Assembly: GCF_022513635.1 (NCBI RefSeq)
Contig: NZ_JAKWBL010000001.1
Coordinates: 1,054,001 to 1,118,000 of the forward strand
DNA length: 64,000 nucleotides
Source: Paraniabella ginsengisoli
Lineage (GTDB): Bacteria > Bacteroidota > Bacteroidia > Chitinophagales > Chitinophagaceae
Direction: 5' to 3'
In this document: piece by piece, positions 16,131 through 58,876 of the stretch
Layout: the number at the start of each line of letters is the position of its first letter
Numbering within the stretch: position 1 is the stretch's first letter
Program-made: the position numbers and the translations under genes
The notes under the pieces: generated by a model
The model's database searches: none
What the model was told of the DNA's origin: nothing
Seen by the model: only the letters and a program-made list of their open reading frames with translations

Positions 16131-16355
16131 ACTTGCCTTACAAGCAGGGAAATTAAAATGAATGGGATAAAATTGTGATAGGGTTTGGAACTCATAAAAT
16201 AGTAATTTAGCTGCTGGAATGGTATTGGTTAATACTGGCAAAAATCGAAGGTGCCAATGAATGTCATGTTGAACAGACCCCCGGTTATTCAAAAACTATC
16301 TTCCTTTCAAAAAAATAATCGTGAAACTTTAAGCCAAAAATTAAAAAAGAGAAAA

Positions 16356-20404: not shown

Positions 20405-20405
20405 T

Positions 20406-21512: not shown

Positions 21513-21600
21513 TAGTTGAATAAGTTTGAAAAAAATGTTGTTGAATAGTTATGTCAAAATAGTTCGAGTGAAATAATAGGAGTTTTGGAGATCTTTTTTA

Positions 21601-21649
21601 ATCGCCTGGAGGCGATAGCATAATCGTTCGAGGCGAAGACGCCTCGAAC
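21601..21649. repeat. Pair of REP-like palindromes
   Basis: Two adjacent perfect hairpins share a GGCG/CGCC core: ATCGCC-TGGA-GGCGAT at 21601-21616, and GTTCGAGGCG-AAGA-CGCCTCGAAC at 21626-21649 (10-bp stem). They sit between two genes of the same minus-strand operon, as REP elements often do. No T tract follows on the minus strand, so this is not a simple terminator. I see no other copy in the window. Confidence 0.6.
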
Positions 21650-21663
21650 AACATTAATTATTG

Positions 21664-23171: not shown

Positions 23172-23176
23172 ACCAT

Positions 23177-26100: not shown

Positions 26101-26385
26101 ACTTTTTCTTAAGCTGCCAGGTACAATTGCGCGCTTACCTGGTGTTTCGGGCAGTTCGGCATAAGCGGCATCGGCAATATCGAGCCTCAAACCCGCTTTC
26201 TGACTGGCTTTATCTGGCCCGTGACATGCAAAACATTTATCGGAAAGAATGGGTTTAACGTGTTTATTAAACTCAACTTTTTTGGGCAGCATATTATAAG
26301 CGGTCTCTACATCATCTGGTAAACTTGGCGCACAGGAATACAAAAACGCTGTGCCAACTATTAATATAAAAAGGCGGCAACTCAT
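23177..26385 (-). CDS. PSCyt1-DUF1549-LamG-DUF1553 outer-envelope lipoprotein (frameshifted)
   Basis: About 1069 residues in sum. Lipobox LYSCAPS (Cys18); haem motif CFACH at 51-55 in FNKHVKPILSDKCFACHGPD; DUF1549 with RRVSLDLTGLPPTIAE and HYGERIAVDWLDAARYADSHG. The last of these is recovered by adding one C near 25658. It continues with NTTSQAFMALTAECARCHDHKFDPISQ, a second CxxCH. An inserted LamG-like domain follows (DMVAHFSLKGNLNNSV to VVVFDRALTG), then DUF1553 with NRLGFAKWLTHPDHPLTARVAVNRYWQ and MVRRQKTNTPLQAL. These proteins are typical of planctomycetes and some Bacteroidota and co-occur with sulfatases. First gene of the operon. Probable role in glycan binding or oxidation. Confidence 0.85.
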
Positions 26386-26667
26386 ATAGCAAAATATTTA
26401 TACAAAATAATGATAATATAACTATAAATTATAATCTTAATCCAACGCATCTTTATACATTTTCAATTTTTTAAAATCAACAGTATCAGAAAATCGGCAT
26501 TATGATTTTAAATGAGAATTTATGAACGAGCTCTGACTACTTTTAAACGCAGGCTAGCTGACCTAAATAGTAGCCGGTATTTCAACAATGTGGTACATTC
26601 GTTTTCGAAATTGTATTATATTCTTATATGCAGACAAAACCTGCTTCGCACAAAGAATGAGAATCAA

Positions 26668-28456
26668 CTATTTGATCGGCTCAACAATTATTGATTTTAA
26701 TTTGAATAATTCTTTACCTTTTTGATAAGGCCGTATTGTGACATTAAATAAACCGGGCTTATCTGTTGAGAAAATTGCCACCGCATGCTTAATAAAAAGC
26801 ATTGGTTTCCATGTCTCGTGTTTTGCTGTTCTTAGCGTTTCGAACATAAATTTTTTTCCACCAATTGTCAGAACACCTTCCTGTTTGGAATCTTCATCTG
26901 CACAGGAGTATTCCAAAGTCAGTTTATAATCTCCTGGTTCGGTAATCCGGATTGCAAAAGAGGTGCTATCCTCTGGTGATTTCATATCCGCAACACAGGT
27001 GGTATGATGCCATACACCAAAGTAGCTACTGTGTGTGAACTTTTTCACGTTTGCTTTGCCTGTGGTTTTTGCAAATACGGCATCAATTATATTTTCCGCG
27101 TATTGTGACGAAACGGTTATGGGTTGAGTCGAATTAAGCGCCTGTGGCTTTCCGCTGTATTCCACAACTATAACGGTGTTGGGACTTTTGTTATCTATTA
27201 TCGAAGACATATCAACATCCAAATCTTTCGATTTTTTGGAAAACGGTAATGCTTTCTTGCCAACCAGGGTATATACTTTGCTTACCTGGTTGCTAAATCC
27301 GGGAACCAATACTTTTTCATTAAACGGCCTGTTCCAAACGTGTAAAAATAATTTGCCAGGTTTGGCTGTTGTAACGCCCCAGGTCTGCTTTGGTATAAAG
27401 CCGTAAGTAGAGCCATAAATACTTTCTCCGTTCTTCTTCAGCCATGCTCCGGTTTCTTTCAAATATTTTACAGAATAGTAAGGGAAATTACCTTTTCCGT
27501 CAGGGCCAACATTTAACATAAGGTTGCCGCCTTTTGATGCCACTTCTGATAATATGTGAATAATTTGTTCTGAAGATTTAAAATTAAAATCGTGCTGAAT
27601 ATAACCCCAGGAATCATTATGTGTAAAGATAGATTCCCAAGCGCCGTTAACCGGTGCCGCCGGTATTTCTGAGTCACCAAAATCTACATAATCTCCTAAA
27701 CCATGACCTACCCGGCTACTGAATAAACTTTTTGGTTGTAATACCCGCAGTTCATTAATAAAATTCTGTGTTTGCTGCTTCGTCATACCACCCGGCGTAT
27801 CAAACCAAATGATGCCGAGTGGCCCATAATTGGTAAGTAATTCTTTTAGCTGGGGTATTGCTTTTTGACGATAATATTGTTGATAATCTTTTTGGATTCG
27901 TCAAAGTCCCAACTGTTATTTCCTCCGTTAGGCTCGTTCCAATCCTGAAACTGCGAATAATAAAATCCGAACTGAATACCTTTTTTCTTGCAGCAGCTGA
28001 AAGGGCTTTCATCGGGTCTTTTTTATAAGGCGTTGCTTTGACAATATTAAAATCTGATACTTTTGAATCGTACATCGCAAAGCCATCATGGTGCTTAGCC
28101 GTGATAACCATATATTTCATGCCCGCATCAGCAGCAATCTGAGTCCATTCATCTGCATTAAAATCAACAGGGTTAAAGGTTTTTGTTATCTTACGATATT
28201 CTTTTATAGGAATTTTGCCTCTTTGCATAATCCATTCACCAGATCCATAATAATTTTTACCTTTCCAGTTCCCTGCATAATCTGAATACAGTCCCCAATG
28301 TATGAACATGCCGAATTTGGCATCTTTAAACCACTGAACATTGGTAGGTTCCTGAGCTGCTGTATTTCCCCACATCTCTTCCATTCCTTTTTGCGCTATA
28401 CAGGAGGATACGGACCATCCAAAAACAATAGCAAGTAACATTAATTTGATTTTCAT
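26668..28456 (-). CDS. GH29 alpha-L-fucosidase with C-terminal accessory domain (two frameshifts)
   Basis: Starts with a lipoprotein-type signal (SVSSCIAQKG). The GH29 barrel shows WFKDAKFGMFIHWGLYSDYAG, YMVITAKHHDGFAMYDS and, after repairing two A-run losses near 27990 and 27893, FGFYYSQFQDWNEP and GIIWFDTPGG, whose Asp is the expected nucleophile. GGNLMLNVGPDGKGNFP closes the barrel. A ~200-residue C-terminal beta region follows (ITEPGDYKLTLEYSCADE). About 596 residues. It retains alpha-L-fucose, releasing it from non-reducing ends. Its promoter region at 28547-28607 carries the 20-bp-spaced operator. Divergent from the GH95 at 29085. Confidence 0.9.
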
Positions 28457-28546: not shown

Positions 28547-28607
28547 CAAAGGTTATTATAGAGCAATCACAAAAAGAATGGATTATATGTGTAAATAATG
28601 GATTATG
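28547..28607 (-). promoter_or_regulatory. Candidate operator/promoter for GH29 at 26668-28456
   Basis: On the minus strand two perfect copies of ATAATCCATT (28606-28597 and 28586-28577) start exactly 20 bp apart, and a -7-like AACCTTTG (28554-28547) follows 22 bp later. The start codon is ~90 bp further on. The same arrangement precedes SusC, the second GH95 and the third GH29. Inference: binding site of a locus-specific activator. Confidence 0.65.
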
Positions 28608-28848
28608 CTACGATAAATAGTAAATAATTTTCCGATTTGTCATTTTGCTTGGCCGCTTGATTATATCTCCGCGATAAACTTGCTTTTGAATCTCATCACG
28701 AAAATCTATAATCCTTATTTTAACTCTTGATCACTTTATGCATTTTTGTACTTATAAAGTCGAAAAACATGGAATAACATGCTATATATTATTCGGTGAT
28801 ATTATACCTTATATCTCTTAGGAGAATAATAAGAGATAAGACCATAGA

Positions 28849-28906
28849 ATAATCCATTTTTTTAATCTAAAGTCCATTTTATCTGAATCTCGGTCAAGTA
28901 TCTTTG
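28849..28906 (+). promoter_or_regulatory. Candidate operator/promoter for GH95 at 29085
   Basis: ATAATCCATT (28849-28858) and AAAGTCCATT (28869-28878) are 20 bp apart. Exactly 20 bp later comes a perfect TAnnTTTG -7 element, TATCTTTG (28899-28906). The untranslated leader would be about 170 nt. With the minus-strand site at 28547-28607 it forms a divergent control region; I see no gene in the 628 bp between the two start codons. Confidence 0.7.
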
Positions 28907-29084
28907 AGAGCGCGAATTGATTGTTATTCAGGTAAGATTTTCAGATCGATTAATTGCTATTTTTTGAACCGAACAGACGAAAAATAATTAAACAATATTT
29001 GTCGTGAAGCATTCATTATGAAGATGACTATAAGCATCGTTGAGATGTTTTTTTAAGAATTTTTTACAACCAAGAACTTTTAAA

Positions 29085-31667
29085 ATGATGATAAAAGCCT
29101 GCCTTAATCTGATCCTTTTGTTGTTGGCAACAACAATGTTTAGTCAAACAAACAGCAACTTGTATTATGACAAACCCGCAGAAGTATGGACGGAAGCCCT
29201 GCCCATTGGTAATACCTACATGGGCGGAATGATTTTTGGCGATCCGTTTAAAGAGCATATTCAGTTAAACGAATCCACGCTTTATAGCGGCGACCCAACC
29301 CAAAAGTATGAGAGCTTTAGCATAAGAAAAGATTATAACGAAGTGATGGCGTTATTAGACGAAGGCAAGTACGCCGAAGCCCAATTACTTATTCAAAAAA
29401 CTGGCTGGGCCGCTCGCAAAGCATGTACCAGCCCATGAGCGACCTTTGGATTGAAATGGATCATAAAGGCAAAGTGTCTGATTACAAACGTGTGCTTGAT
29501 CTTTCCAAATCCATTCACAAAGTATCCTACACCATTGGCAATACAAAGTATGAGCGCGAAACTATTGCCAGTTATCCCGATCATATTTTTGCCATTAAGT
29601 TTACCGCAAATGGCTCTGATGCCATGAGCGGCTCTATTTCCTTTTCAACACCTCACGAGCCGGCAATGAAGCTTGGTGGTAAAGGCCACACGTTATATCT
29701 TAATGCGCGCGCTCCGGGCTTTGGAGTTCTAAGAGGAATAGATCAGATAGAAAAATTTGGAGATCAACATAAATATCCTGAAATCTTCAACTTAGATCGC
29801 AGCAGAAAACCGAAGGCAGCACAATTATTATATAATGAAGAGGCCGATAATTTAGGTATGTATTTTCAATCGCGTATTAAAGTAAAGAATACAGATGGAA
29901 AAATAAGTTATGAAAACGGAAAATTGATATTTTCTGATGTATCAGAAATGACCATTTTACTTACCGCTGCTACCAGCTTTACAACAGTTGATGAAAGCCC
30001 GTTGGATAAAGATTTGCCGGAACAACGCACTATTTCTTATTTACAGAAGATAGAAAACGCCGATTATGCAACGATTAAAAACCGACACATTGCAGACTAT
30101 ACCAAGCTTTTCAATCGTGCTGATTTATCCATCAACAACGAAACAAAATATGCCGGCTTGCCAACTGATCAGCGGATTATGCGCTACAAAGAAGGGGGCG
30201 ATGAAAACCTGGCTGCATTGTTTTTTAAATTTGGACGCTATTTAATGATAGCCGGTTCAAGGCCGGGCGGGCAGCCATTAAACCTGCAAGGTATTTGGAA
30301 TGATAAATTGCTTCCACCATGGACAGCGGCTTACACCATTAACATCAATTTAGAAATGAATTATTGGCCTGCCGAGGTTACCAATCTTTCCGAGTGCCAC
30401 GAACCTTACTTTAAAGCGATCAAAGAGTTATCTGTTAACGGTGCTAAACTGGCCAGATCTATGTATGGCCTTGACGGATGGATGGCCAATCACAACACTT
30501 CCATTTGGCGTCATGCCGGCCCGGTTGATAATTGTGCGTGTTCTTTCTGGCCGGTAGCGTCGGGCTGGCTGGTAAGTCATTTTTGGGAACGTTATCTTTT
30601 TACCGGCGATCAAAAATTTTTAAGAGAAGAAGCTTATCCGCTGCTTCGGGGTGCGGTGGTGTTTTATAAAGACTGGCTGAAACCCAATAAAGACGGGTAT
30701 TTGGTAACACCTGTAGGCCATTCACCCGAGCAGAATTTTAAGTATACCGGCGGACAATCAACACAAAGCCCCGGGCCAACAATGGATATGGCGCTTATCA
30801 GAGAAAGTTTTGACCGCTATCTTCAGGCGCTTGATATTTTAGGAATTGAAGATGCCGAACTGCGAAAAGAAATTACAGAAAAGAAAGCCAAGCTGTTACC
30901 TTATCAAATTGGCGAACATGCCCAGCTACAGGAATGGCAGTTTGATTTTAAAGATGGAGATATACGCCATCGCCACATTTCGCATTTGTACCCGTTTCAT
31001 CCCGGCAACCAGATAACGCCTACAACTACACCCGAACTTGCTAAAGCCGTAAAGCAGGTTTTAATAAGAAGGGGAGATGAGGCCACCGGCTGGTCGTTAG
31101 GCTGGAAGGTGAACATGTGGGCGCGCATGTATGATGGCAATCATGCGTTAGGTATTTTAGAAAAACTTATTCGCCTTGTAAAGAAAACGATCCGAAACTG
31201 AAAGGTTCCGGATCTTATCCTAATATGTTTGATGCTTGTCCGCCTTTTCAGATCGATGGCAATTTTGGCGCAACTGCAGGCATAGCCGAAATGCTGTTAC
31301 AATCGCACGATGGCTTTGTGCATATTCTTCCTGCCCTGCCCGAAAGATGGAATAGTGGTAAGGTTTCAGGGCTTAAAGCTCGGGGAGATTTTGAAGTAGA
31401 TATCGAATGGAATAAGCATACTTTAAAGCAGGCAAAAATAATAGTGGGTAAAGATGGTGTGCTTCCTGTTCGCAGCGCGGTTCCATTACGTATAAAAGGG
31501 GGAAAAATAAGGAGCGAAAAAGAACCAAACATTTTATTGTCTCCAATGAATCCCGGTGCATTTCTCGATCATAAAAAACATCTTTTCCTGATCTGCTTGT
31601 TCCAAAATTTTATGAATATCATATTGATGTTAAAGCAGGGGATGAGATCTTATTATATAAAAAGTAA
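29085..31667 (+). CDS. GH95 glycosidase, possible alpha-L-galactosidase (Thr at the HxNxN site; three frameshifts)
   Basis: Signal peptide [22 protein letters not shown]-terminal domain [23 protein letters not shown]. Catalytic domain NLQGIW, then [24 protein letters not shown] (general acid Glu) and [12 protein letters not shown] (Asp). Three one-A losses, near 29400, 31183 and 31578, break it. Repairs give [30 protein letters not shown] and [20 protein letters not shown], ending at 31667; about 861 residues. At the residue two before NIN it has Thr where the other GH95 has His. I recall this change as characteristic of alpha-L-galactosidases of this family, so specificity may differ. Secreted. 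Confidence 0.88.
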
Positions 31668-31756
31668 TAACGGGGTTCGTTTTCGTGAAGGTGCAAAGCA
31701 CGCTGATGTTTGTCTTCCAGTTTAGAAGCGAATAATTGATACTTTACGCCCATAGT

Positions 31757-31814
31757 ATAATCCATTTTTTTATATTATAATCCATTTTTTCGATGTTTTA
31801 CACGTCTACCTTTA
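31757..31814 (+). promoter_or_regulatory. Candidate operator/promoter for the SusC/SusD operon
   Basis: Two perfect ATAATCCATT copies, each followed by a T run (31757-31766 and 31777-31786), are spaced 20 bp apart. TACCTTTA, a 7/8 match to the -7 element, begins at 31807, exactly 20 bp after the second copy, identical spacing to the GH95 promoter. The start codon of SusC is at 31909. Confidence 0.72.
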
Positions 31815-31908
31815 CATTGCTTATAAAACGGTTGTATTGTTCATAGTAGCTCTCTCATCATTCAAGAATAATTATCAATAAAATTTTATAAAATAAAACA
31901 ATTGCTGC

Positions 31909-34900
31909 ATGGAAAAAGAAAATCCTTCATTAGAGGGACGCCTACATTTGTCAGGTAAAACGATACTTTTCTTTTTACTTTTTTGCTTTCAACTTTTTAT
32001 GTTGAAGGACAAGGCCAGACCAAACGCATTACAGGAACAGTAACAGACAACAACGGTACAGCTCTCGCAGGCATTAGCGTAACAGTAAAAGGCGCGCCTG
32101 GCGGAACTACTACGGATAATAAGGGAAATTATTCTATTGATGTTGCATCGGCAGAAGCGGTACTCGTATTTAGCGGTGTTGGTTTTTCAACTATAGAAGA
32201 GACGTTGAGCGGCCGGGAGTCAGTATCCGTAACACTTACAGGACAAGCCAGCGATCTGGAGGAAGTGGTGGTAATTGGTTATGGAACAGCCCAGAAAAAA
32301 GATGTAACGGGTGCCGTTTCCAGAGCTAATCTGAAAGCGTTTAAGGAGTCACCAAATACTAATATTCTTCAATCTCTGCAAGGTTCGGTAGCTGGTTTAA
32401 ATGTTGGAGCAGTAAACAGGGCTGGCGCTACACCGTCTATTTCTATTAGAGGAAGGGTTTCTCTATCCGGTACCAGCGCTCCGTTAATTGTTCTAGACGG
32501 AATTATTTACAGGGGAAACTTAAGCGACATTAATCCGGCTGATATTGCTACTGTAGATATACTTAAAGATGCAAGCGCTGCTGCTATTTATGGTTCGCAA
32601 GCTTCAAATGGTGTATTGTTACTGACTACTAAAACAGGAACGGCAGGTAAGCGGCCAACTGTTTCATTAAATACATCACTCACTTTTCAAAAGATAGGGA
32701 ATGATGATATGTTGCCGTTGGATGCCGAAGGTTACCTGCGGCTGAGGGCTGACCGCTTCCTGACGCAAAGCCGAACAGGCGATGATCTGCTAAGCCCTAA
32801 CCCGTCATGGGATGTATTGAAGGTGGTGCCGGCAGAAGTAGCAACCGGAATTCAGAACGGAACCAATACGAATTGGTGGGATTTACTTACCAACCAAACG
32901 CCGATGATTCAGAACTATGACGTTGGAGTGAGCGGCAGAACAGAGCAATCTTCTTATTACTTTAGCCTGGGTTATACCGATCAGGAGAATGTTGTAATCA
33001 ACGACACCTATAAGCGGTATAGTATGCGGTTAAATCTGGAAAGTAAAATAACTGACTGGCTGAAAATGGGGATTCAGTCTTCGTACAGTATCAACGACTA
33101 CTCCGGAGTTTCTCCCAACTTAGCAAACATATTTACGTTGGCACCCCAAATGGCGTATAAGGACTCGGCAGGGGAGCTTATACGCTTACCTAATCGCGCG
33201 GCATTAAATCCTTTATTAGAGGTAACTCAGGACAATTTTGATAAACGTAATAACCTTTTCGGGCTCGTGTATGCAGATCTGAACATTCCCTTTGTAAAGG
33301 GACTGAATTATCGGGTTAATTTTGGTAACAACTACATTCAGGAAAGGGCGTATAATTTCAATCCTTTCGGACAAAATTTTACCGGCACCGCTTCTAAATC
33401 AAATAGCTCGCGATACAACCAGACGCTTGATAATATTCTGAATTATAAAAGAAGCTTTGGAGATCATGATATCAATGCAACTTTTGTATATGGTTATGAA
33501 ATTAATAAGTTCGATAGTACTGGCGCCAGCGCTGCTGGTTTTGATAATCCTGCGTTAGGATACAATGGTCTTGAATTTGGCAGTGCGGTGTTGCAAAAGG
33601 TGGGTTCCGCTGCATGGAAAGAAACTAGTTTATACCAAATGTATAGGCTTATTTATGGTTTTAAAGATCGCTATGTATTTACCGGAACGCTGCGTAATGA
33701 TGGCTTTTCAGGGTTTGCTCCGGATAATAAGATTGCCAGTTTCCCTTCAGCAGCTTTTGCCTGGAATATCCGCAAGGAATCTTTTATGGACGACCATCTG
33801 ACTGCTTTGGATGAACTGCGGTTGCGGCTTTCCTATGGTGCTAATGGCAACCGTACTGTGGGTCGCTATCAGACGCTTTCAACCCTTACTACATCATTTA
33901 ATAATGGTTATTTGTATGGAGATGGTGGCCTGGCACAACAAGGGCAGAACATTACTCAATTGTCTAATAAAAGCCTGCGCTGGGAAACCACAAGAACTTT
34001 TAATGTGGGAGTAGATTTCGCGTTCTTAAAACATCGAATTTCTGGTGAACTGAATCTTTACAGCGCTAATACTTCAGACCTTTTGTACACCGTGAATATA
34101 CCGTCCGTTAACGGTCTTACTACTATTCCAATGAATATCGGCAAGCTGAGTAATAAAGGTATTGAGCTTGCGTTGAATGCAGATCCTGTTCAGGGAGAAA
34201 ACTTTAACTGGTCTACTTCTGTAAACTTCTCACTAAATCGGAATAAAGTGGTCAGCATTTTGGGTATTGATGCTAACGGTGACGGAAAAGAAGATGACCT
34301 CATTGCATCGAAAATATTTATGAATGAACCTTTTGGTGTTGTTTATGATTACAATATTATAGGTATGTGGCAGGTAGCAGATTATCGTGCAAATATCATC
34401 CCTGCTGGCTTTACCTATGGTACATACAAGGTAGAGGATATGAACGGCGATAATGCGTTTACTGCTGGCGCAGACCGGAAAATCCTGGGTTATACAGATC
34501 CATCCTACCGTATCAGTTGGCTAAATACGGTGAGGTATAAAAACTTTGAGTTAAAAGCTTTTATTAATTCCATACAGGGAGGAAAGAAGTATTACTACGG
34601 GCAGCCGGCTGCAACGGTACCCAACCCGGATAATATGCAAACGAATAATTTCTTTGATTTTGATTACTGGACGCCGGAAAATCCTAATGCCCGCTACCGG
34701 CAATTAGGATTTTATACTACTTCTATTGGGCAGGAGTTTTCACCTTATATTCAGCGCAACTTCATCAGGTTACAGGATCTAACAATGTCTTACGATCTGC
34801 CACAAACAATCGCTAAAAAAGCAGGAATGAAAAGAGCCCGCCTTTTCCTGAATGGCAAAAACCTGTTTACACTAACGGATTGGGATGGTTGGGACCCCGA

Positions 34901-34976
34901 AACCGGTACCGGCCTGGCAACAGGTGCCTATCCGCTGATGAAAAGTTATTCGGTTGGCTTAAGTTTTGATTTTTAA
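31909..34976 (+). CDS. susC: SusC-like TonB-dependent outer-membrane oligosaccharide transporter
   Basis: About 1022 residues from the ATG at 31909 after restoring one T in a T5 run near 31998 (FCFQLFYVEGQGQTKRITG). Otherwise the frame opens only at 31983. A signal-anchor is followed by a carboxypeptidase-regulatory-like domain (ITGTVTDNNGTALAGISVTVKGAPGGTTTDNKGNYSI), the EEVVVIGYGTAQKKDVTGAVS plug start, and a long beta-barrel ending in SYSVGLSFDF with terminal Phe. It forms the outer-membrane pore that, with SusD as lid, imports glycan fragments using TonB energy. It heads the operon with SusD and GH29 and carries the operator upstream. Confidence 0.93.
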
Positions 34977-34987
34977 ATTATTCAGAT

Positions 34988-36711
34988 ATGCAAAAGATTA
35001 TTATTGTTTTAATAGGAATCGCAATTCTTGGCATTTCCTGTAACCGCGATAGATTTTTAGAAGAAGAGCCGCTTGATTTCTATACGCCGGACAACGCCTT
35101 TAACAACGTAGCCGGTTATCAGGCTTCCATTAATTACCTGCACAACCAGATGCGTAGTATCTTATTTGGTGGTTATCACCTGGAGTCCTATTTTCCTTTG
35201 CGGTATGCTACAGATTTTGCAGTAAACGCAACCGATTATAGCCCTCCCGCCAAATTAAATGACTATAAAAATACGATGGTACCAACCTTTATTGTACCGG
35301 AAAAAATTTGGCAGGGTTTGTACCTTATAGTAAGTAATGCCAACGTAGTGATTACCCGTAGCAGAACTTCTACAGCGATTCCTGAAGCAGACCGGATAAA
35401 GTTCAGAACACAGGCGCTGTTCTTTCGCGCATGGGCCTATAACTTCCTTGCCAATTTATATGGCGGCGTACCCTTGGTGCTGGAAGAAACCGTAACACCT
35501 CGTAAAGATTATACAAGGGCTACGCGGGATGAAGTATATATGCAATGCAAAAATGATCTTACAGAGGCTATTACAACTTTGGGCAATGTAGATGCGGTTG
35601 AGGCTGGTGCCGTCAATAAGCAAGCTGCGCAGCATCTTTTGACAGAAGTACTGATCTCATTAAAAGATTATGATGGAGCCATAACGGCAGCCTCTTCGGT
35701 AATATCCTATCCTGGCCTTAGCCTGATGAAGACAAGGTTTGGCCGGCATGCTACCAGGCCGGGTGATGTGTACAAAGATCTTTTTGAATTGAATAACCAG
35801 AACCGTACCAGTGGTAATACCGAAGGGATTTTTATCATTCAGGCTGATTATCAAAACGCCGCAACCATTACCAGAGATGTTATTCAGTGGGCCATCATAC
35901 CTCAACTTGCAAGCCTTCGTGTTTCTACGTCTGTTGGAGGAAAAGCGCCCACCTCGCAACCAGCGATAAAAGGGTTTAATGATAAGCTTGCAGGCAGGGG
36001 AGTAGGCTGGATGCGTCCTTCCATTTTTTTTCTTTACGAGGTTTGGGATGACGCGAATGATATGCGTAACTCTGAATACAACATTGTACGAGATATACGT
36101 CTTGACGGCCCTCCGGCAAACTCGGATGCTTATGGAAAATACTATGTAGCAGATGGGTACAAAGCTAAATCCACCGGCTTTGCTGATACAACAAGAAACT
36201 GGTTTCCAATTCTTAAAAAAGCAACGCTTTCTGAAGGCGATTTTCCACAAGAAGTTTTAGAAAAGAATGCTGCCGGAAACCCAGTGATGGCACCGTTTGG
36301 TGGCATTATGCTGCTGAATTCGAGTGGTGATGTTTATCAGAAAGATGTCTATCTGATGAGGCTTGCCGAAACTTATCTGCTACGGGCGGAAGCCTACATA
36401 AAAAAGGAGACCCCTCAAAGGCTGCAGATGATGTCAATGTAATAAGGGAGAGGGCGAACGCTCATCTGGTAAACACAGGACAGATGAATCTTGATTTCTT
36501 ACTGGATGAACGCCTACGCGAATTGTATGTAGAGGAATTAAGAATGGTAACGCTTTGCAGAATGGGCTTGCTATACGATCGTACTAAACGATACAATGAA
36601 AAATCAGGGCTTACGATAGAGCCTTATCATAATCTTTGGCCCATTCCATATTCTGAAATAGAACGTAACACAGGAGCTTTGTTAGAACAAAATCCGGGGT
36701 ATATTCAATAA
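34988..36711 (+). CDS. susD: SusD/RagB-like outer-membrane glycan-binding lipoprotein (frameshifted)
   Basis: Lipobox ILGISCNRD (Cys18). The N-terminal part LEEEPLDFYTPDNAFNN and the helical region FRTQALFFRAWAYNFLANLYGGVPLVLEE are standard SusD features; the C-terminal part has VYLMRLAETYLLRAEAYI. An A6 run near 36411 lacks one base; the repair gives KKGDPSKAADDVNVIRERAN and continues through LLDERLRELYVEELR to the stop at 36711. About 574 residues. It caps SusC and binds the target glycan at the cell surface. 11 bp separate it from susC. Confidence 0.92.
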
Positions 36712-36723
36712 TCTACCGTTAGT

Positions 36724-37808
36724 ATGAAGATTGAAAAAAACAACACTTCTATTCTGCTTTTTCTTTTGTTTTAATCTGCGTCGGGTGGCCGCGAATGTCA
36801 ATGGCCCAGTCTGATGAGGCGGCGATGAGGAAAAGACAAAATGAGTTTACAAGTTGGAAGTTCGGCATGTTTGTTCATTTTAATATGGGTACTTTTGTGA
36901 ATCGGGAGTGGGCTACAGGTTATGAGGATCCGCTGCTTTTTAGTCCTGCAAAACTAAGTTGCGAGCAATGGGCAAAAGAGGCTAAAAATGCCGGTATGAA
37001 GTATATAGTACTTACCACCAAACATACAGGTGGCTGGTGTCTTTGGGATAGTAAATATACAACCAAGCATGACATTACGGTCTTTAAAAATTATAAAAAT
37101 GGAAAAGGAGACATTGTCCGTGACTTTGTTGATGCTGCCAGAAAATATGGACTTAAAGTAGGTCTTTATTATTGTCTGCCTGGGGATTATTCTCAAAAAT
37201 TAGGAAGCAAAAGAGATCAGACGGTGGGATATAAAATCACTGCACAGCAAGACGATCTGCACGGACTTCCGCCGGAGGCTAGAGGCGATTATGCCGGTTT
37301 TGTTGAGAAGCAGGTGGCCGAGTTGCTTACTAATTATGGCCCAATAGACATGATATGGTTTGATCAATATACCAACAAATACACAGGTAAACACTGGCTG
37401 CAATTAAAAGGCTTAGTGCACAGGCTTCAACCTAAATGTGTTTTGATTGCTAATAACTCTCGCGATTACAAGACAACCGATATTTATAGCTACGAATATC
37501 CTTATCTGGCGAAAAATTCAAAGCCGGGTCCAAGGGCTTTGCCTGGTGAAGACGAAAATAATCCGGGCGAAGTGAGTGATTGCATAGCCACTACAAACTG
37601 GCTTTGGAATAATGAAGTGCCGCTGAAATTGCAAAGCGCAAAAACAATAACCGAACGGTTAAATTTTTGCAACGAGCGAAGCACAAATTATTTGCTTAAC
37701 GTACAGCCAGACAGAGAAGGGTTGATTAGCGGCGATTATTTGAAACGCCTGCGCGAAGTTGGAAAGGTGGTGTTGATGAACCGAAAATCTGGCAAAGAAG
37801 TAGATTAA
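36724..37808 (+). CDS. GH29 alpha-L-fucosidase, second copy (frameshifted signal peptide)
   Basis: The ATG at 36724 and one added A in an A6 run give a signal peptide ending MSMAQS. The frame is then continuous. GH29 motifs: SWKFGMFVHFNMGTFVNREWATG, MKYIVLTTKHTGGWCLWDS, KVGLYYCLPGDYS, and DMIWFDQYTNK, where the Asp is the expected nucleophile. It is a short, single-domain enzyme (~361 residues) without the C-terminal extension of the first GH29. Located 12 bp after SusD, so it is in the same transcript. Probably periplasmic. Confidence 0.88.
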
Positions 37809-38067
37809 GTATTAGTCACTTTGAATGGAGTAATATTAATAACTGTTTATTTTTTAATATGTAGCTACAGACATGGTTTTGTCGGGCCTTAACTAAGAGT
37901 TATAGTCATAAGGTACAGTATTGGCAAGCGTCTCGATGAAATTAGAGATCTTTAAAAATTAATAAATCTAACGATATGTTCAGAATTTTCTTTTCCCCAA
38001 TGATGTGCCGGTAAATATTTAAAATATAAATAAACGATGTTCCCTGGTTTTAAAATAGTATAATATT

Positions 38068-39523
38068 ATGAAGTGTAAGCGCCGCCTGTTATTTTTTCTG
38101 GCCACATTTTTTTTAACGCTACTTATTAATGGACAAAGCGGCAAGCCCAATGTTATTTTTATTATGGCTGATGATATGGGTTATGGCGATGTAGCATGTT
38201 ATAACTCCGAGTCAAAAATTCCAACTCCCAATATGAACCAGCTGGCCAGGGAAGGTATGATGTTTACCGATGCTCATGCGGCGTCATCAGTATGCAGTCC
38301 TTCGCGGTACAGCTTTATTACTGGCAAATATGCCTGGCGTTCCGATTTAAAAAGAGAAGTGTTGTGGTCAACTTTTGATGATCCTTTAATTGATAAATCA
38401 GAAGTAACTATTGCCGATATGTTTCAATCAATGCAATACAAAACAGCAGTTATTGGCAAGTGGCATTTAGGCATTCATTTTTTACAAAATAAGGGGTTTG
38501 GGTATGCGCAAGCTAAAAAGTGGCATGAAAGCGGGGTAAAGGGTACAAAAGATGTCAACTTTATAAACCCATCTTACGGAGGCCCCAACGATCTTGGGTT
38601 TGACTATTCTTTTATTTTGGGCGGAGGTAATAATATGGAACCTTTTGCTTTTATTGAAAACAGATTTACATTGGGTTTGCCCACTGTTTGGCGTGAAAAA
38701 GGAGAACCAACCGTAAAAGGAACATCTGCGTCAGAAGTGCATGAAGGCTGGATGGTAGAAGGATGGGACGATACTAAAATTGGCTCATCCTTTACAGAAA
38801 AATCGCTGGACTTTATTGAAAAAATGCGCAGGCAAATAAATCATTTTTTCTATATCTTCCAACAACGGCGCCGCACAGACCCTGCACTCCGCCCGATTTC
38901 GTAAAGGGCAAAAGCCTGGCTGGCGAACGTGGCGATATGGTAGCTGAATTTGATTGGACAGTAGGGCAGGTGATGAAAAAATTAAAAGAATTGGGGATAG
39001 AAAAAATACGCTTTTAATTATATCGAGCGACAATGGAGCTACAAAAGTTAGTGATGACGGTAAAGATTATGGACATAAAAGCTGCGGAAATTTGCATGGC
39101 TATAAAAGTGCGCTGCACGAAGGCGGACATCGTGTGCCGTTTATAGTAAGATGGCCAAACGTAGTGAAGCCAAATACGAAAACAAATGAGCTGGTAAGTA
39201 TTATGGATATTTATGCAACAGTTGCTGATATTTTGGGCAAGAAAAAACCCGAAGGCGATGGCATTAGTTTTTTACAAATTTTAAAAGATCCCAATGCCGC
39301 ATCTAAAAGAACACAAATGGTGCATCATACTTACTCCGGCGATTATGCATTGCGATATGGTAACTGGAAATTCATTCCTAACCGATCGGGCAAAGACGGC
39401 TCTTGGTCTTATGAATTATACGATCTGAAAAAAGATCCGTACGAAACAAAAAACCTGGCTGATGAAATGAAAGAAAGAACAAAAGAATTGGAAACGATTT
39501 TATTTACGTCGATAAATATGTGA
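38068..39523 (+). CDS. Type I (formylglycine) sulfatase 1 (frameshifted)
   Basis: Signal peptide ending LLINGQ, then the sulfatase start PNVIFIMADDMGYGDV with metal-binding Asp pair. SSVCSPSRYSFITGKY holds the CxPxR motif whose Cys76 is expected to become formylglycine. IGKWHLG is conserved. Losses of one A near 38831 and 39004 break the gene. Repairs give RQNKSFFLYLPTTAPH and EKNTLLIISSDNGA, with further conserved motifs HEGGHRVPFIVRWP and ELYDLKKDPYETKNLA. The true C-terminus may extend to about 39583 after one more T. It removes sulfate esters from the glycan, in the periplasm. 258 bp of gene-free DNA precede it, without the 20-bp operator. Confidence 0.88.
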
Positions 39524-39559
39524 GGCTTGTAGTTAAAGTCAAAAAAACTCAAAACGGTT

Positions 39560-41003
39560 ATGCTGGCAAAAAGAATTTATAGTGTTTTATTATTGGTGTT
39601 TATTTTAGGTTGTAATGTTGCAAAATCCAATAATGTAACTAAAATAAAACAGCCCTAATATCATACTTGTTATGGCTGATGATTTGGTTGGTTTGATGTG
39701 GGCTTTAATGGTAATAAGATTGTAAAGACTCCGAACCTGGATGGTTTGGCTGCTCAAGGTGTTGTTTTAAGTAGGTTTTATTCGGCTTCGGCAGTTTGTT
39801 CTCCCACACGAGGAAGCGTGATGACGGGCAGAAACCCCAACAGAATTGGAATTCCAAACGCTAATGAAGGCCATTTAGATAAGAACGAAATTACTTTGGC
39901 CGAAGTATTAAAAGATAAAGGCTATACAACCGGGCATTTTGGTAAATGGCATTTGGGAACATTTACTACAACAGAAAAAGATGCCAACCGCGGCGGAACC
40001 CCTCAGAATGACAAGCATTTCACAGTGCCATCAGATCATGGTTATCAGGATTATTTAGCTACCGAATCTAAAGTACCTACTTATAACCCAATGGCCAAAC
40101 CGAAAAAATTTGAACAAGGAGAAAGCTTGCGTGATGGCTGGAATGCCAGAACCGATGAGCAGGAAACAGAAGCCTACGGCACATTTTATTGGACCCTCAA
40201 TAATCAAAAAGTAAGTAAAGCACTTGACGGCGATGACTCTAAAATCATTATGGATAGAGTCATCAAGTTTATTGATCAATCAAAGCAGCAAAAAAACCTT
40301 TCTTTTCAACTGTTTGGTTTCATACACCACATTTACCGGTTGCAACTAACGAAGCCTGGCGCAATTTGTATTCGGGTATGAGCTTGTTCGAGCAAAATTA
40401 TTTTGGATCTATCAGCGCAATGGATGAACAGATGGGCAGGTTATGGTCTTATTTAAAAAGTATTGGCGAGGCCGATAATACAATTATTTTTTATTGTAGC
40501 GACAATGGCCCGGAAGAAAAAACACCTGGTAGCGCTGGTAAATTCAGAGCCGATAAACGAGATTTGTATGAAGGCGGTGTAAGGGTACCAGCATTTGTGG
40601 TATGGAAAGATCAATTAAAAGGTGGTCGGTCTATTGATGCACCAATGGTTACTTTGATTATTTTCCAACTATTCTAAACCTGTTAAACATCCCATTACCC
40701 CAAACCAAAAAATATGACGGGATGAATGTATGGGAATTGATTTCCGGTAAACAGCAGTATCGAAATAAACCTATCGGGTTTGTTTATTTACAAAGACGTT
40801 CTTGGGTAACGGATACGTATAAACTGATTTCAGTTGATAATGGTAAAACCTATGAACTATACGACTTGATTAAAGATCCTTCTGAACAAAAAAATATAAT
40901 TGAAAACCATTCGGAGGTAGCGGCAAAAATGATAAAAGAGTTGAACAACTGGTTAAAAGAAATTGAAGGGGAAAGGGCTGTTATAGAAGCTTCCTGGAAA
41001 TGA
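39560..41003 (+). CDS. Type I (formylglycine) sulfatase 2 (several frameshifts)
   Basis: The ATG at 39560 opens a lipoprotein-type signal (VFILGCNVA). After shifts near 39650 and 39688 the sulfatase N-terminus appears ([19 protein letters not shown]). [15 protein letters not shown] is the modification motif. GHFGKWHLG follows. Breaks near 40300 (A6) and 40650 (T3) are repaired to [16 protein letters not shown] and [16 protein letters not shown]. The C-terminus has [16 protein letters not shown]. About 480 residues. Substrate position on the sugar is unknown. It follows sulfatase 1 with almost no spacer. Confidence 0.85.
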
Positions 41004-41039
41004 CCGGCTTATTGCTTACGTCTTTTTTAAATTTATATC

Positions 41040-42541
41040 ATGCAAATCAAATTCATTAAGCGGTTGATTTTTATTTTTTGCGCTATCATTCCCACTTTAG
41101 TATTCACCAGTACATTAAAAGCTCAAAGTAATTCCAAACCTAATATTGTCTTTATTTTAGCCGATGATCAGGCATGGTATACTATACATGCATTGGGTAA
41201 TAATGAAATAGAAACACCTAATTTGGACAGGCTGGTACGTATGGGAAAAAGCTTTACCAATGCTTATAATATGGGTGCCTGGGGAGGAGCTGTTTGTGTT
41301 GCCTCCCGGGCTATGTTTATTTCGGGTAGAACCATTTGGCACGCCAAAGAGTTGGACAATAAGTGGCATCAGGGCCAGGCAATAAATCAAACCTGGGGTA
41401 AGATAATGGAAGAGGGCGGGTATGCTACTTTTATGACGGGTAAATGGCATGTTGAGGTGCCGGCCGAAAAGGTTTTTAATGTAGTAACTGACATACGACC
41501 AGGCATGCCGGAATATAAAACCCCTGCTAAGGCTGCATTACCGGGTAATGTCACAAATAAAAACCTAAATATTCCAGGTTATAACAGGCCTTTGAATGTA
41601 AATGATGATACATGGTCGCCGTACGATACATCCTTTGGCGGCTATTGGGAAGGAGGGGTGCATTGGTCCGTTGTTTTCAAGAATCATTCCTTAGAACACA
41701 TACATGCTGCAGCAAAACAAGATAAACCGTTTTTTCTTTATCTGGCGTCTAATGCGCCACACGATCCGCGTCAATCTCCCAAAGATTATGTAGACCGGTA
41801 TCCTTTGGATAAGATTTCAATGCCAAAAAGTTTTCTTCCTGTCAATCCTTATAAAGATTCCATCGGTAATAGCGCTGGGCTTCGAGATGAAGCATTGGCA
41901 CCGTTTCCCAGAACTGAGCTTGCCATAAAAATGCATACAAGAGAATATTATGCAGCGATCACTTTTTTAGATAAACAAATTGGAGACATTTTAGACGCGC
42001 TCGAAACCACAGGAAAAATGAATAATACCTATATATTTTTTACCGCCGATCATGGCCTTGCTATGGGGCGGCACGGTTTCATGGGTAAGCAAACATTATT
42101 TGAACACAGCATGAAGCCACCACTTATTGTAATTGGGCCTGGTATTCCGAAGAACACTATTTGCAATACCCCTGTTTACATACAAGATATTGTGGCAACA
42201 AGCATTGAACTGGCGCAAGTAAAGAAACCTGCTTATGTAGGGTTTGAATCATTTTTATCATTAGCAAAGGGAAGTTCTCAAAAAAGATTCATGATGCAAT
42301 TTATGGCGCATATATGAATGTTCAGCGAAGCATTCGAAAAGGTCAATACAAGCTTATTGTATTTCCCAAGCTAAATAAAGTACTGTTATTCGATTTAAAT
42401 AATGATCCCGAAGAAATGCATGATTTGGCAGGGATTAAAAAGTATAAATCAAAAGTCAGCGAATTATTTGAAGCGCTGCTTAAAAAGCAACAGCAGATGG
42501 ATGACCCATTAAATATTAGCAATATTGCAAATAATATTTAA
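41040..42541 (+). CDS. Type I sulfatase 3 with CVASR modification motif (frameshifted)
   Basis: Signal peptide ending STLKAQS. NIVFILADDQAWYTIHALGN holds the metal-binding Asp pair. GAVCVASRAMFISGR carries Cys86 in a CxAxR rather than CxPxR context; CxAxR is also a known substrate of some formylglycine-generating enzymes. MTGKWHVE replaces the usual GKWHLG. FTADHGLAMGRHGFMGKQTLFEHSMKPPLIV is typical of choline-sulfatase/heparan-type branches. An A6 run near 42283 lacks one base; the repair gives QKKIHDAIYGAYMNVQRSIR and the end at 42541. About 500 residues, periplasmic. Confidence 0.88.
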
Positions 42542-42591
42542 CGGAGCTTTTTCTTTTAATAACTACAGAGCAACAAAAATAGACAGGCATA

Positions 42592-42649
42592 GAAATCCAG
42601 TAAATAGAATAAGAGTCCATTTTCAGACTGTACAATGGTCTCACCTTTA
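42592..42649 (+). promoter_or_regulatory. Weak fifth operator-like site upstream of the 42.7 kb remnant and sulfatase 4
   Basis: GAAATCCAGT (42592-42601, 7/10 match) and AGAGTCCATT (42612-42621, 8/10) are again 20 bp apart, and CACCTTTA begins 20 bp later. The geometry equals that of the strong sites but the sequence is degenerate. A strong hairpin lies just downstream. Confidence 0.4.
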
Positions 42650-42669
42650 AAATGAAAATTCAATCGTTA

Positions 42670-42719
42670 AAAGTGAAAGAAATGAGGCTATGAACTTACC
42701 GCCTCATTTCTCACTTTTT
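42670..42719 (+). terminator. Rho-independent terminator-like hairpin
   Basis: AAAGTGA-(AA bulge)-GAAATGAGGC pairs with GCCTCATTTCTCACTTT across a 12-nt loop and runs into TTTTT. It lies ~130 bp after sulfatase 3. It could end that operon, or act as a leader hairpin for transcripts starting at the weak promoter just upstream. Confidence 0.7.
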
Positions 42720-42723
42720 GACG

Positions 42724-42967
42724 ATACTCATCTTCAAGGAAGAAGAAGGTACACTATATATCAATGCCGTTCCTGAAGATAATAAGCTAATCTGAAATCG
42801 GCGTATGTAAAAATTGATGCCTTGCAGAAACTGCAGCCCCTATGTGGCAACGAAGATAAAGCGGCTGATACAGGTTATTTTGAAAAGGAGACAAAGATTT
42901 GTCTGCATGGTTTAAAACCGGAGACTATAAAAAATGGGCGCATATTATGTTTGAACTACAAGAATAA
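42724..42967 (+). pseudogene. Remnant C-terminus of an unknown protein
   Basis: Coding-like pieces in alternating frames: ILIFKEEEGTLYINAVPEDNK, then LKSAYVKIDALQKLQPLCGN, then DKDLSAWFKTGDYKKWAHIM ending at a TAA (42965-42967). The joins need a shift near 42790 and one A near 42886. No start or signal peptide is present. I do not recognise the family; it is probably the tail of a deleted enzyme of the locus. Confidence 0.4.
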
Positions 42968-43102
42968 ACGATTAGACAGTGTGTTGAAACAAAGAAAACT
43001 TGCGGAGGATAAACTTGTAAAATCGGTTATTAATTTTTCGGTATCAAAGTGATAGTATGCAAAGTACAATTAAAAAAGATCATTCAATATAAATATCGAA
43101 AC

Positions 43103-44630
43103 ATGTTTAGATTCTCTCTTTTTCTTATTATATCTTTTTATGTCGTATCAGCGGCGGCACAAACGGATCACCCCAATATTATTTTTATTCTTGCCGATGA
43201 TTTGGGTTATGGAGATATAAGCTCGCTGAATGAAGAGGGTAAGATTAAAACTCCAAACGTTGATCGCATCGCCCATGCAGGAATAAGGTTTACAGATGCT
43301 CATACAAGTTCTTCGGTTTGTACACCATCGCGCTACGGAATTTTAACAGGACGATACAATTGGCGCGGAACCCTGAAAAGCGGTGTATTAAGGCCTTACG
43401 AGGCGCCTTTGATAAGGCCCGACAGAACAACAATGGCATCTATGCTAAAACAAAAAGGGTATCAGACAGCCTGCATTGGAAAATGGCATTTAGGCTTTAA
43501 CTGGAAAACGAAGGACGGCGCAAAACCTGTTGACACGGAAAGTAAGAATAACCTCGATTATAAAGCTTCGATCACAGGCGGCCCGGTTGATATTGGGTTT
43601 GATTATTTTTTGGAGTGGATGCGCCCAATTATCCACCTTACACTTTTATACATAACCGCAGTTTGACAGGAAAGCCTGATCAGTTCTTAACATTTGTTGG
43701 CAAGTTGCTGGAGAGCCGGGCTGGTACCGGAGAAAAAACTGGAATTTGGAAGCGGTTATGCCAAAGTTGCAACAAAAAACGGTTAGCTATATTCAAAAAG
43801 CGGCCAAAAGCAAAAAACCATTTTTCCTTTATCTGCCTTTAACGGGCCCGCATACTCCCATTTTGCCCACGCCGGAATTTAAGGGTAAGTCTGGACTCAA
43901 CATTTATGCCGATTTTGTAATGCAGATGGATGGTTATGTGGGCGCGGTGCTGGATGCACTTCAACAAGCCAAAATATCAGAGAACACAATCGTAGTATTT
44001 ACAAGCGACAATGGATGTTCTCCAGTAGCTAATTTCAGCGAGTTGGAAGCCAAAGGCCATGATCCCAGTTATATATTCAGAGGAACAAAGGCGGACATAT
44101 TTGAAGGTGGTCATCGGGTGGCCTGTCTTATGCAATGGCCTGCGGTAATTAAACCCGGCCGCAAAATAAAACAACCCATTTCGATGGTGGATTTTTTTGC
44201 CACATTCGCCCGCATTACAGGGTATGATATTAAAGATAACGAAGCCGAAGATAGCTATGATATGTACGCTGCTATTACTAATCCTAAATTTACCGCTGCT
44301 GTAAGAAATGATATTGTAATGCATTCCATAGATGGCAGCTTTTCCATAAGAAAAGGCAACTGGAAATTAGAATTTTGTCCGGGATCCGGTGGCTGGAGTC
44401 CGCCCAAAAGCAATGAAAAGAACCCCAATCTTCCAGTTATACAATTATACGATTTAGCAAATGATATCGAAGAAAAAAACAACGTTGAAGCGCAGCATCC
44501 CGATATTGTAAAAGAACTAACAACGCTTATGACAAAATATATAAAAGAAGGAAGAAGTACTCCGGGAAAGCCTCAGCAAAACGACGGCGACTTTATTACT
44601 GAACGTATGTTTTTTCTTTCTGATAAATAA
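43103..44630 (+). CDS. Type I (formylglycine) sulfatase 4 (two frameshifts)
   Basis: The ATG at 43103 gives a signal peptide ending VVSAAAQ. NIIFILADDLGYGDISSLN, SSVCTPSRYGILTGRY with the modifiable Cys73, and CIGKWHLGFNWK follow. A T6 loss near 43610 and an A6 loss near 43738 break it; repairs give FDYFFGVDAPNYPPYTFIHNR and GEKNWNLEAVMPKLQ. It ends with VFTSDNGCSP, FEGGHRVACLMQWPAVIKPGR and EEKNNVEAQHPDIVKELT. About 509 residues, periplasmic. It resembles arylsulfatase A/GALNS-type enzymes. Convergent with the GH29 at 44681. Confidence 0.88.
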
Positions 44631-44680
44631 ACAGCCCGTATAGAAATAAAATGAATTAGATCTTATACAAGATATATAGC

Positions 44681-46072
44681 TCACTTCTCGTTTTTCCCGA
44701 TGGAAACACCTTCCATTTTTACTACTATTGGATTGGGCCATGCTCTATCGTCATAAATGCGTTGTGCCCTCATCACCGACATTTCAGAGCCGCCTCCTGC
44801 AACTGATTTTATCGAAGGAGATGGGTCTACTTGCGGTTTGTATTCCAACACCTTCCCATTATGGCCTAATACCGAGACCTTAGTTTTATCAGTAGATCGG
44901 ATTGATGGCAACGCAATTTGTTTTCTTTCTCCAAGCTTCCATCCATCTTCGCAAATAAATGCATAAACAACACCCGCTTTTTTATTTTGCAAATACCAAA
45001 CATTATCATCGCGTACAACCGGGCATGAGGTCGTATTAGTCATGGCTTCCTTATTTATAAACATCCATAAAGAAATCTCATTTAAAACAGCCCATTGTTC
45101 AGGCGGAAAGGAGCCACGTCTATCGGGTCCAAAATTTAATAATAAGTTTCCTCCTTTAGCACGAATCTCAATCAGCTTTTTAATAACCGTATTTGCTGAT
45201 TTGTAGTTTTCGTTGGTGGGTTGGTATTGCCAGGCATGGCCTAGGGTATAACAAGCCTCCCATGGCGATGGCAAAGGCTCTTTAGGTGTCGCTTGTTCCG
45301 GCGTCTTCATAGCACCACGGGTAACCACAGCATCCGGATTAGAAGACCAGCAGATTTTTGCCAGCTCAGTCATTCCGTACTGATCTATTCCATCTAAAAA
45401 GATAATGTCAATTTTACCATAATTGCTCATTAACTCTTTCATCTGTTTTTTTGCATATTCATTCAATGCCGGGTTTTTAGAAGCCGCGGTTTCAGGCCTC
45501 ACACGGGAAACCAGATTGCCCTGGCTCTTAAGAAAATAAAAATCTTCCGGAGAAAAATAAAATCCAATGGCAATGCCGACTTTACGGAAAGCATCCACGA
45601 ACAATTTGGTTATATCTTTACCATACGGTGTGTTCATTATATTGAAAGCGGTTGTTTTAGTATCGAACATGCAAAACCCGTTGTGGTGTTTTGTTGTAAA
45701 TACTGCATATTTCATTCCGGCCATCTTTGCATCCTGAGCCCATTGTTCTGCATCAAATTTATCCGGGTTGAATGTTTTAGGTAACTCGTTAACATAACGG
45801 TTGAAATAATCATCTGATGCGCCAACCAAGCTGTGGCTGATAACAGAACCTAATTGTGCGTCTACACTAAAGTGAATAAACATACCAAAACCAAGTGAGG
45901 TAAACCATTGCTCCCGTTCTTTCTTGTTGAGATTTAACACTCCTGTTTCGGGGTTAATACCTTGCTCTTTTTCTTCTATGTCTTTTTTATTTTGTTGTGA
46001 GATTTGAGCGTTAATAGAAGACGTGTACCCAAGAAAAAGAATAATCAGGATTAAACGAAATACTTGTTTCAT
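44681..46072 (-). CDS. GH29 alpha-L-fucosidase, third copy
   Basis: 463 residues from the start at 46072, which gives a signal peptide (MKQVFRLILIILFLGYTSSINAQ); a frame-open extension upstream would run through the promoter. Motifs are WFTSLGFGMFIHFSVDAQLGS, MKYAVFTTKHHNGFCMFDT, IAIGFYFSPEDFYF, and KIDIIFLDGIDQYG, where the nucleophile-bearing WFD is FLD. KGGNLLLNFGPDRRGSFPPEQW is conserved. Intact, unlike most neighbours. Its promoter at 46126-46184 has the 20-bp operator. Likely periplasmic exo-fucosidase with a specificity different from the other two. Confidence 0.9.
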   Translation of the reverse strand: MKQVFRLILIILFLGYTSSINAQISQQNKKDIEEKEQGINPETGVLNLNKKEREQWFTSLGFGMFIHFSVDAQLGSVISHSLVGASDDYFNRYVNELPKTFNPDKFDAEQWAQDAKMAGMKYAVFTTKHHNGFCMFDTKTTAFNIMNTPYGKDITKLFVDAFRKVGIAIGFYFSPEDFYFLKSQGNLVSRVRPETAASKNPALNEYAKKQMKELMSNYGKIDIIFLDGIDQYGMTELAKICWSSNPDAVVTRGAMKTPEQATPKEPLPSPWEACYTLGHAWQYQPTNENYKSANTVIKKLIEIRAKGGNLLLNFGPDRRGSFPPEQWAVLNEISLWMFINKEAMTNTTSCPVVRDDNVWYLQNKKAGVVYAFICEDGWKLGERKQIALPSIRSTDKTKVSVLGHNGKVLEYKPQVDPSPSIKSVAGGGSEMSVMRAQRIYDDRAWPNPIVVKMEGVSIGKNEK

Positions 46073-46125
46073 TTTTTTGTTTAATGTAGTGATACTGTAG
46101 ATAGTGAATGAGCTGAAGATATCTG

Positions 46126-46184
46126 TAAAAATACGTTGTCGTTCCAACTTTGACAATGGAGTATAATATGAAAACATGGACTAT
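46126..46184 (-). promoter_or_regulatory. Candidate operator/promoter for GH29 at 44681-46072
   Basis: On the minus strand ATAGTCCATG (46184-46175) and ATACTCCATT (46164-46155) start 20 bp apart. TATTTTTA, a 7/8 match to TAnnTTTG, begins 21 bp later (46133-46126). It lies 54-112 bp before the start codon. Fourth instance of the same architecture within 18 kb. Confidence 0.65.
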
Positions 46185-58869: not shown

Positions 58870-58876
58870 AACAATA

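Follow-up and report, generated by a model that had tools for sequence, protein, structure and literature searches.

Four promoters of a fucosidase/sulfatase locus in Paraniabella ginsengisoli carry the same direct-repeat element, i.e., two 10-bp words whose starts lie 20 bp apart, followed at a short distance by a TAnnTTTG-like -7 element. The stretch of DNA analyzed here (hereafter the window) comprises 64,000 nucleotides (assembly GCF_022513635.1, contig NZ_JAKWBL010000001.1, C1:1054001-1118000) of a 4.53-Mb genome in five contigs, and Pfam places GH29, GH95, SusC, SusD and sulfatase genes at 26.7-46.2 kb of it. We consider it likely that the four sites serve as operators of one locus-specific activator of the AraC type encoded elsewhere in the genome; for the narrower proposal that this activator is a hybrid two-component system (HTCS), we regard the chances as roughly balanced.

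A direct-repeat operator at four promoters

The sites and their -7 elements are given below, with operator mismatches counted over the 20 fixed letters of ATAATCCATT-N10-ATAATCCATT.

28577..28606, minus strand: P1 operator, upstream of GH29a; ATAATCCATT-N10-ATAATCCATT, 0 mismatches
28547..28554, minus strand: P1 -7-like element AACCTTTG, 22 bp past the proximal copy
28849..28878, plus strand: P2 operator, upstream of GH95a; ATAATCCATT-N10-AAAGTCCATT, 2 mismatches
28899..28906, plus strand: P2 -7 element TATCTTTG, exact TAnnTTTG, 20 bp past the proximal copy
31757..31786, plus strand: P3 operator, upstream of SusC; ATAATCCATT-N10-ATAATCCATT, 0 mismatches
31807..31814, plus strand: P3 -7-like element TACCTTTA, 20 bp past the proximal copy
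46155..46184, minus strand: P4 operator, upstream of GH29b; ATAGTCCATG-N10-ATACTCCATT, 3 mismatches
46126..46133, minus strand: P4 -7-like element TATTTTTA, 21 bp past the proximal copy

The initial annotation of this sequence had reported the four pairs with their positions, strands and 20-bp spacing and had assigned GH29, GH95, SusC and GH29 genes to them; all of this was confirmed, the genes behind P1-P4 by Pfam. Its further claim, that such exact spacing is hard to explain by chance, also held. At up to three mismatches the pattern matches the window five times against 0.03 expected, a number reached in none of 100 shuffles, and when gaps of 8-13 bp were tried, matches at this threshold appeared for a gap of 10 only, the period being exactly 20 at all four sites. 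The fifth match, at 28227 (+), has three mismatches and a poor second half and lies within the GH29 reading frame. At that place (28227-28236, +), a perfect ATAATCCATT stands antisense in the GH29a frame, with TACCTTTC 21 bp downstream and no partner 20 bp upstream. Taken singly, the 10-mer ATAATCCATT is present seven times in the window (five of these copies being in operators) and absent from 284,009 bases sampled elsewhere in the same genome.

The -7 elements fall into register with the repeats as the initial annotation had described, i.e., 20-22 bp past the proximal copy at all four promoters, those of P1, P3 and P4 being one consensus base off each. The local background for TAnnTTTG with at most one mismatch in any of the three offsets is 3.4%, and alignment at all four promoters was seen in 0 of 2000 resamples.

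A scan of the whole genome, which the initial annotation had proposed as a check, returned six matches to the literal pattern at up to three mismatches (control, 0), namely the window's five plus a sixth at 905623, which is in overlap with reading frames. The consensus AWANTCCATK-N10-AWANTCCATK at up to two mismatches gave 11 matches, of which the four perfect ones all lie in the fucosidase/sulfatase locus; the other seven have two mismatches each (none has one), are close to the control level (6) and all overlap open frames of at least 80 codons. Thus, the operator is confined to this locus within the 4.53-Mb genome.

Two explanations would dispense with a regulator. The motif was chosen by eye, after being seen, in A+T-rich sequence, and could in principle be a chance pattern; this is hardly credible, as the four perfect genome sites share one locus and as a search with no preset motif (10-mers repeated exactly with periods from 16 to 26, leaving simple words aside and accepting further places at up to three mismatches) ranks the operator family first with five places, 28227 included, against at most two in any of 12 Markov resamples of the window. 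We therefore take the four-site operator to be real and far beyond chance. Alternatively, one promoter could have been copied along with paralogous fucosidase genes, and GH29a and GH29b do both match PF01120, but we find this highly improbable, given that GH95 and SusC are unrelated genes and that mean column identity across the four promoters is 0.875 in the site and falls to 0.54 upstream and 0.575 downstream; with identity confined to the 30-bp site, the promoters are not copies of one another.

Distribution in the family and wiring of orthologous loci

Among 394 genomes of the family (our own included), the literal pattern at up to two mismatches has a match in 32, and more than two matches in this genome only. 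Thirty of the 34 places listed in other genomes were checked (29 loci): 24 lie in frames of at least 100 codons and the remaining six have no -7 element (up to one mismatch) in register. Within this sample, conservation of the site does not extend past the one genome.

The nearest relative found at the locus is Niabella aurantiaca DSM 17617 (L082), whose SusC is sister to that of the window in the tree (support 100/100) and 76% identical to it (SusD 85%, GH95 62%); no other close ortholog turned up in the genus. At up to four mismatches and gaps of 8-13 bp, the operator was not found in the 23 kb of this locus. Nor was it found in the 6 kb of a second one from the same genus (L100, genome G277), which matches N. 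aurantiaca at 100% identity in its STN and FecR parts. The initial annotation had held that loss of the 20-bp spacing in orthologous promoters of close relatives would refute its reading; the repeats are indeed missing from N. aurantiaca, yet the locus there stands behind a different kind of regulator. Its SusC bears an STN domain and is preceded by a sigma-70-family gene and a FecR gene, and the coupling of STN-bearing SusC proteins to control by extracytoplasmic function (ECF) sigma and anti-sigma factors is already known (PMC7782687). In the window SusC, Pfam finds no STN domain (PF07660), only ca. 220 bp separate the P3 -7 element from the CarbopepD domain, and tblastn with the N. aurantiaca sigma and FecR proteins (E up to 1e-4) finds no relative of either in the window. 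Both species thus have an orthologous SusCD/sulfatase/GH95 locus, preceded in N. aurantiaca by ECF sigma/FecR/STN signaling, whereas the window locus is without all three and has operators at four promoters instead. To judge from the sequences, it appears to be wired differently from its sister.

Across 16 SusC loci (15 relatives and the window), with STN called by Pfam and ECF/FecR by tblastn, the domain and the upstream gene pair go together without exception, both being present in eight and both absent in eight.

STN and ECF/FecR both present: L082, L087, L089-L091, L094-L096
STN and ECF/FecR both absent: L083-L085, L088, L092, L093, L097, window

Two of the 17 relative loci were left out of this count (L086, where the contig begins at SusC, and L098, 27% identical), and L101 and L102 were excluded as non-orthologous (46-47% identical, branch length 1.01). 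In the four STN-less loci from Bacteroides/Phocaeicola (L088, L092, L093, L097), an HTCS gene ends just before SusC, and no HTCS adjoins SusC at the three from Chitinophaga (L083-L085) or in the window; wherever a regulator was found next to SusC at an STN-less locus (n = 4), it is an HTCS. On the SusC tree, the distribution of STN over the labelled rows takes two or more changes to explain (the Chitinophaga rows are unlabelled and L097 was omitted for its broken frame), so that this SusC family has probably swapped its mode of regulation on more than one occasion.

The gap between the HTCS gene and SusC contains, in all four HTCS-linked loci and without mismatch, the repeat ATGWAACA-N14-WTGWAACA with a period of 22, a pattern written after the sequences had been seen; a reversed control, allowed up to two mismatches, matched once, in a single locus of the four. 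In L097, the second repeat lies ca. 31 bp from a -7 element (hand count).

L088, 9789-9818: ATGWAACA repeat between HTCS gene and SusC
L092, 9793-9822: the same
L093, 9832-9861: the same
L097, 9825-9854: the same

Class of switch and candidate regulators

Escherichia coli AraC binds at araI1-I2 to a pair of half-sites in direct orientation, spaced by two turns, of which the proximal overlaps the -35 element, a likeness qualified by the sigma-70 elements there as against the Bacteroidota -33/-7 elements here. The output domains of HTCS proteins belong to the AraC/XylS family (PMC11253607), and the account in PMC3878776 presents the motifs of 16 HTCS regulators as direct repeats throughout, with a mean period of 21 bp and examples such as 16+5, 12+9 and 14+6 bp. 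In the Bacteroides thetaiotaomicron regulons HTCS_Rgu-2 (14+6 = 20) and HTCS_Man, as here, a two-word direct repeat about two helical turns apart stands at the promoters of SusC/SusD glycan loci, and such regulons can take in distant targets (PMC3878776). The window locus differs from them in having no regulator gene and in the confinement of its sites to one locus, and in none of the other genomes examined was its operator seen at a promoter. SusR-like sites were rejected as the class of the operator, as the periods published for them (67 or 77 bp; PMC3878776) do not match 20 bp. The operator is therefore best classed, on its architecture, as a new instance of the known AraC/HTCS direct-repeat type; our literature searches, which were not aimed solely at that question, turned up no operator described for Chitinophagaceae. 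The initial annotation had proposed an AraC-type or hybrid two-component activator, a reading that gains support from the repeat architecture of HTCS sites, from the missing STN/ECF/FecR module and from the adjacent HTCS in four of the eight STN-less loci, and one that we likewise infer.

We postulate that the activator would respond to a sugar, probably a fragment of some sulfated glycan that contains fucose, and that two of its DNA-binding domains, spaced by two helical turns, would then occupy the two 10-bp words from one side of the DNA. Between the end of the proximal word and TAnnTTTG lie 20-22 bp, so that the word falls approximately at the expected -33 position, where it may stand in for a -33 element and bring the activator into direct contact with RNA polymerase. 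With an operator at each unit, the GH29a, GH95a and GH29b units and the SusCD/sulfatase unit would be induced jointly.

Several observations weigh against a locus-specific AraC-type activator. HTCS genes are usually located within their own locus, and in the window, as the initial annotation had remarked of the regulator, there is no HTH_18 match; the nearest is 43 kb off, among genes without the context of a polysaccharide utilization locus (PUL). A search for the regulator by orthology to the four Bacteroides HTCS gave no clear best match (identities of 31-39% in the helix-turn-helix (HTH) part over several paralogs) and was abandoned. At P1, TTTG directly follows the proximal word, so this promoter may have a -33 element of its own. 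The operator (up to two mismatches) is missing from all nine other sampled genomes of the genus, one of which has the orthologous locus, and thus leaves no conservation footprint. Finally, the period-22 repeat of the HTCS-linked loci differs from the operator in word, period and distance to the -7 element, and hence lends support to the architecture without pointing to a particular regulator.

The genome holds 31 HTH_18 and ten Y_Y_Y matches, eight of the latter over the cut-off and each of these eight 1.5-1.8 kb from an HTH_18 match. One of them, the HTCS gene at C1:1845.6-1849.9 kb, offers a weak lead to the regulator. It immediately precedes the SusC gene of a second PUL (L116, C1:1842000-1858000) in which GH95, SusD and sulfatases are matched as well, and its sensor part is found in two of 17 genomes of the genus at E 1e-60, its own and one with a partial 50% match (this test of distribution covered two of the eight HTCS genes). 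The SusC promoter of the second PUL reads ATAATCC-N24-TATTTTTG, with one half-site in register, 21 bp after its tenth base, and the other missing (7 of 10 mismatches). Written as a pattern after this promoter had been noticed, the half-site and -7 element have six exact matches in the genome against one in the control; four overlap reading frames and two look non-coding, i.e., the one at C1:1009400 and that of the second-PUL promoter, which is upstream of the likely SusC start, yet inside the stop-to-stop frame.

Other candidates were set aside. By summed whole-protein score against the Bacteroides HTCS, an HTCS gene at C2:575-579 kb leads for three of four and the second-PUL gene for one, but the former was demoted because its first 392 residues match at 54-74% identity in seven of the genus's 16 other genomes, including one (G022) with no SusC match at E 1e-200. 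This gene (L110, C2:571000-587000) is flanked by sulfatase genes on both sides, with no SusC match in these 16 kb. The nearest HTH_18 gene (C1:1038884-1039456) was dropped as having no visible link to the locus; its neighbors encode an HMA/MauE-domain protein, DNA polymerase III delta and anhydro-MurNAc kinase, and two further frames there match nothing in Pfam. The region at 58186-59227 of the window, in and next to a PAS histidine kinase frame, although matched by an HTCS query, was not taken as the regulator as it has no HTH_18 match; at 57388-59227 (+), a PAS histidine kinase frame is followed by an HTCS-like frame without an AraC-type HTH match. A Crp-like gene at 46723-47289 matches only the cNMP-binding domain, and Crp sites are inverted repeats. 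Genes with a fucose isomerase domain gave no pointer either, as they occur in two places, neither beside an HTH_18 match (closest 9 kb apart). A loose search for direct repeats in 16 loci returned noise only, and when the SusC upstream regions of five paralogous PULs in the same genome were searched (rough start points), they yielded one period-21 repeat (L111), without a -7 element in register.

A different protein may read the same operator. A one-component, cytoplasmic AraC-family activator in place of an HTCS is possible though unlikely: 23 of the 31 HTH_18 matches are unpaired with an over-cut-off Y_Y_Y match, and at each of the three Chitinophaga loci, STN-less and without adjacent HTCS, a frame with an AraC-type HTH lies 8-9 kb downstream of SusC (confirmed by Pfam for L083 only), L085 having a further one ca. 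2 kb upstream of SusC that was seen only with a home-built HTH profile (30 stretches, part of them read on the wrong strand and the profile hence degraded; its other uses, for L049, L083-L085 and the HTCS genes of the Bacteroides loci, were re-seen by Pfam or tblastn). Set against this are the HTCS adjoining SusC in all four STN-less loci where a regulator was found and the want of a single candidate gene that stands out. A repressor seated over the -33 region, blocking the four promoters until an inducer arrives, would also be compatible with the position of the proximal word, but appears improbable. Sugar-gene repressors of the LacI, GntR and ROK types mostly use inverted repeats, whereas ATAATCCATT is not palindromic, and imperfect -7 elements, as in three of the four promoters, suit activator-dependent promoters, neither point being decisive. 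We think just as little of a LytTR-type response regulator. LytTR is not known as a usual regulator of PULs, and the genome has eight LytTR matches, none within 400 kb of the locus. LytTR proteins do use direct repeats about two turns apart near promoters, with 9-bp words, mostly 12 (11-13) bp between them and a period of 20-22, upstream of the -35 element (PMC6193735). Their period fits the window operator, although the words differ, and their distance to the promoter does not, since they tend to end ca. 10 bp before -35 (4-11 bp in Streptococcus mutans; PMC6193735), i.e., further upstream than the proximal copy here.

Gene layout and implications

Strand and gene order suggest the following units behind the four promoters.

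19778..28456, minus strand: likely P1 transcription unit (extent predicted from strand and gene order only), with GH29a, a PSCyt1/PSCyt2/PSD1 protein, a DUF1501 protein, an NHL-repeat protein and one more open reading frame
29085..31725, plus strand: GH95a behind P2, in more than one frame, start predicted from the signal-peptide-like MMIKACLNL
31910..34976, plus strand: SusC without STN domain behind P3, main frame 31983-34976
34988..44630, plus strand: SusD, GH29c and about four sulfatase genes, several of which extend over more than one frame, downstream of SusC on the same strand
44681..46072, minus strand: GH29b behind P4, ATG predicted at 46072

GH29a is spread over two frames (27800-28456 and 26668-27786), and the likely ATG of SusC (31910) is in a different frame from its main one. 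Many genes of the window are broken into neighboring frames in this way (e.g., near 22570, 25600, 27790, 29423, 38930 and 43700), which resembles uncorrected long-read indels; the completeness of the genome is given as 91.98%. Next to GH29a (19778-26385, minus strand), planctomycete-type cytochrome proteins (PSCyt1, PSCyt2, PSD1) and a DUF1501 protein are found in this Bacteroidota fucosidase/sulfatase locus. A second GH95 gene (16251-18737, plus strand), past the end of the P1 unit, has no operator copy.

The different signaling system at the orthologous locus of the nearest relative is the more interesting part of the finding. In its boldest form, the PUL would have been rewired from the STN/FecR/ECF sensing of N. 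aurantiaca to AraC-type operators on which the second PUL's HTCS, ca. 750 kb away, acts in trans, and one sensor would then drive two PULs. We hold this to be rather doubtful, as just one half-site is present at the second-PUL SusC promoter and the half-site pattern was written after that promoter had been seen. What is new is that orthologous transporters of the same genus, 76% identical, appear to be tied to two different signaling systems, one of them with operators over four units. The operator could be used as bait for its regulator, and the pair formed by the window and N. aurantiaca would make it tractable to ask how a transporter uncouples from its sensing and how a locus gains an operator at every promoter.

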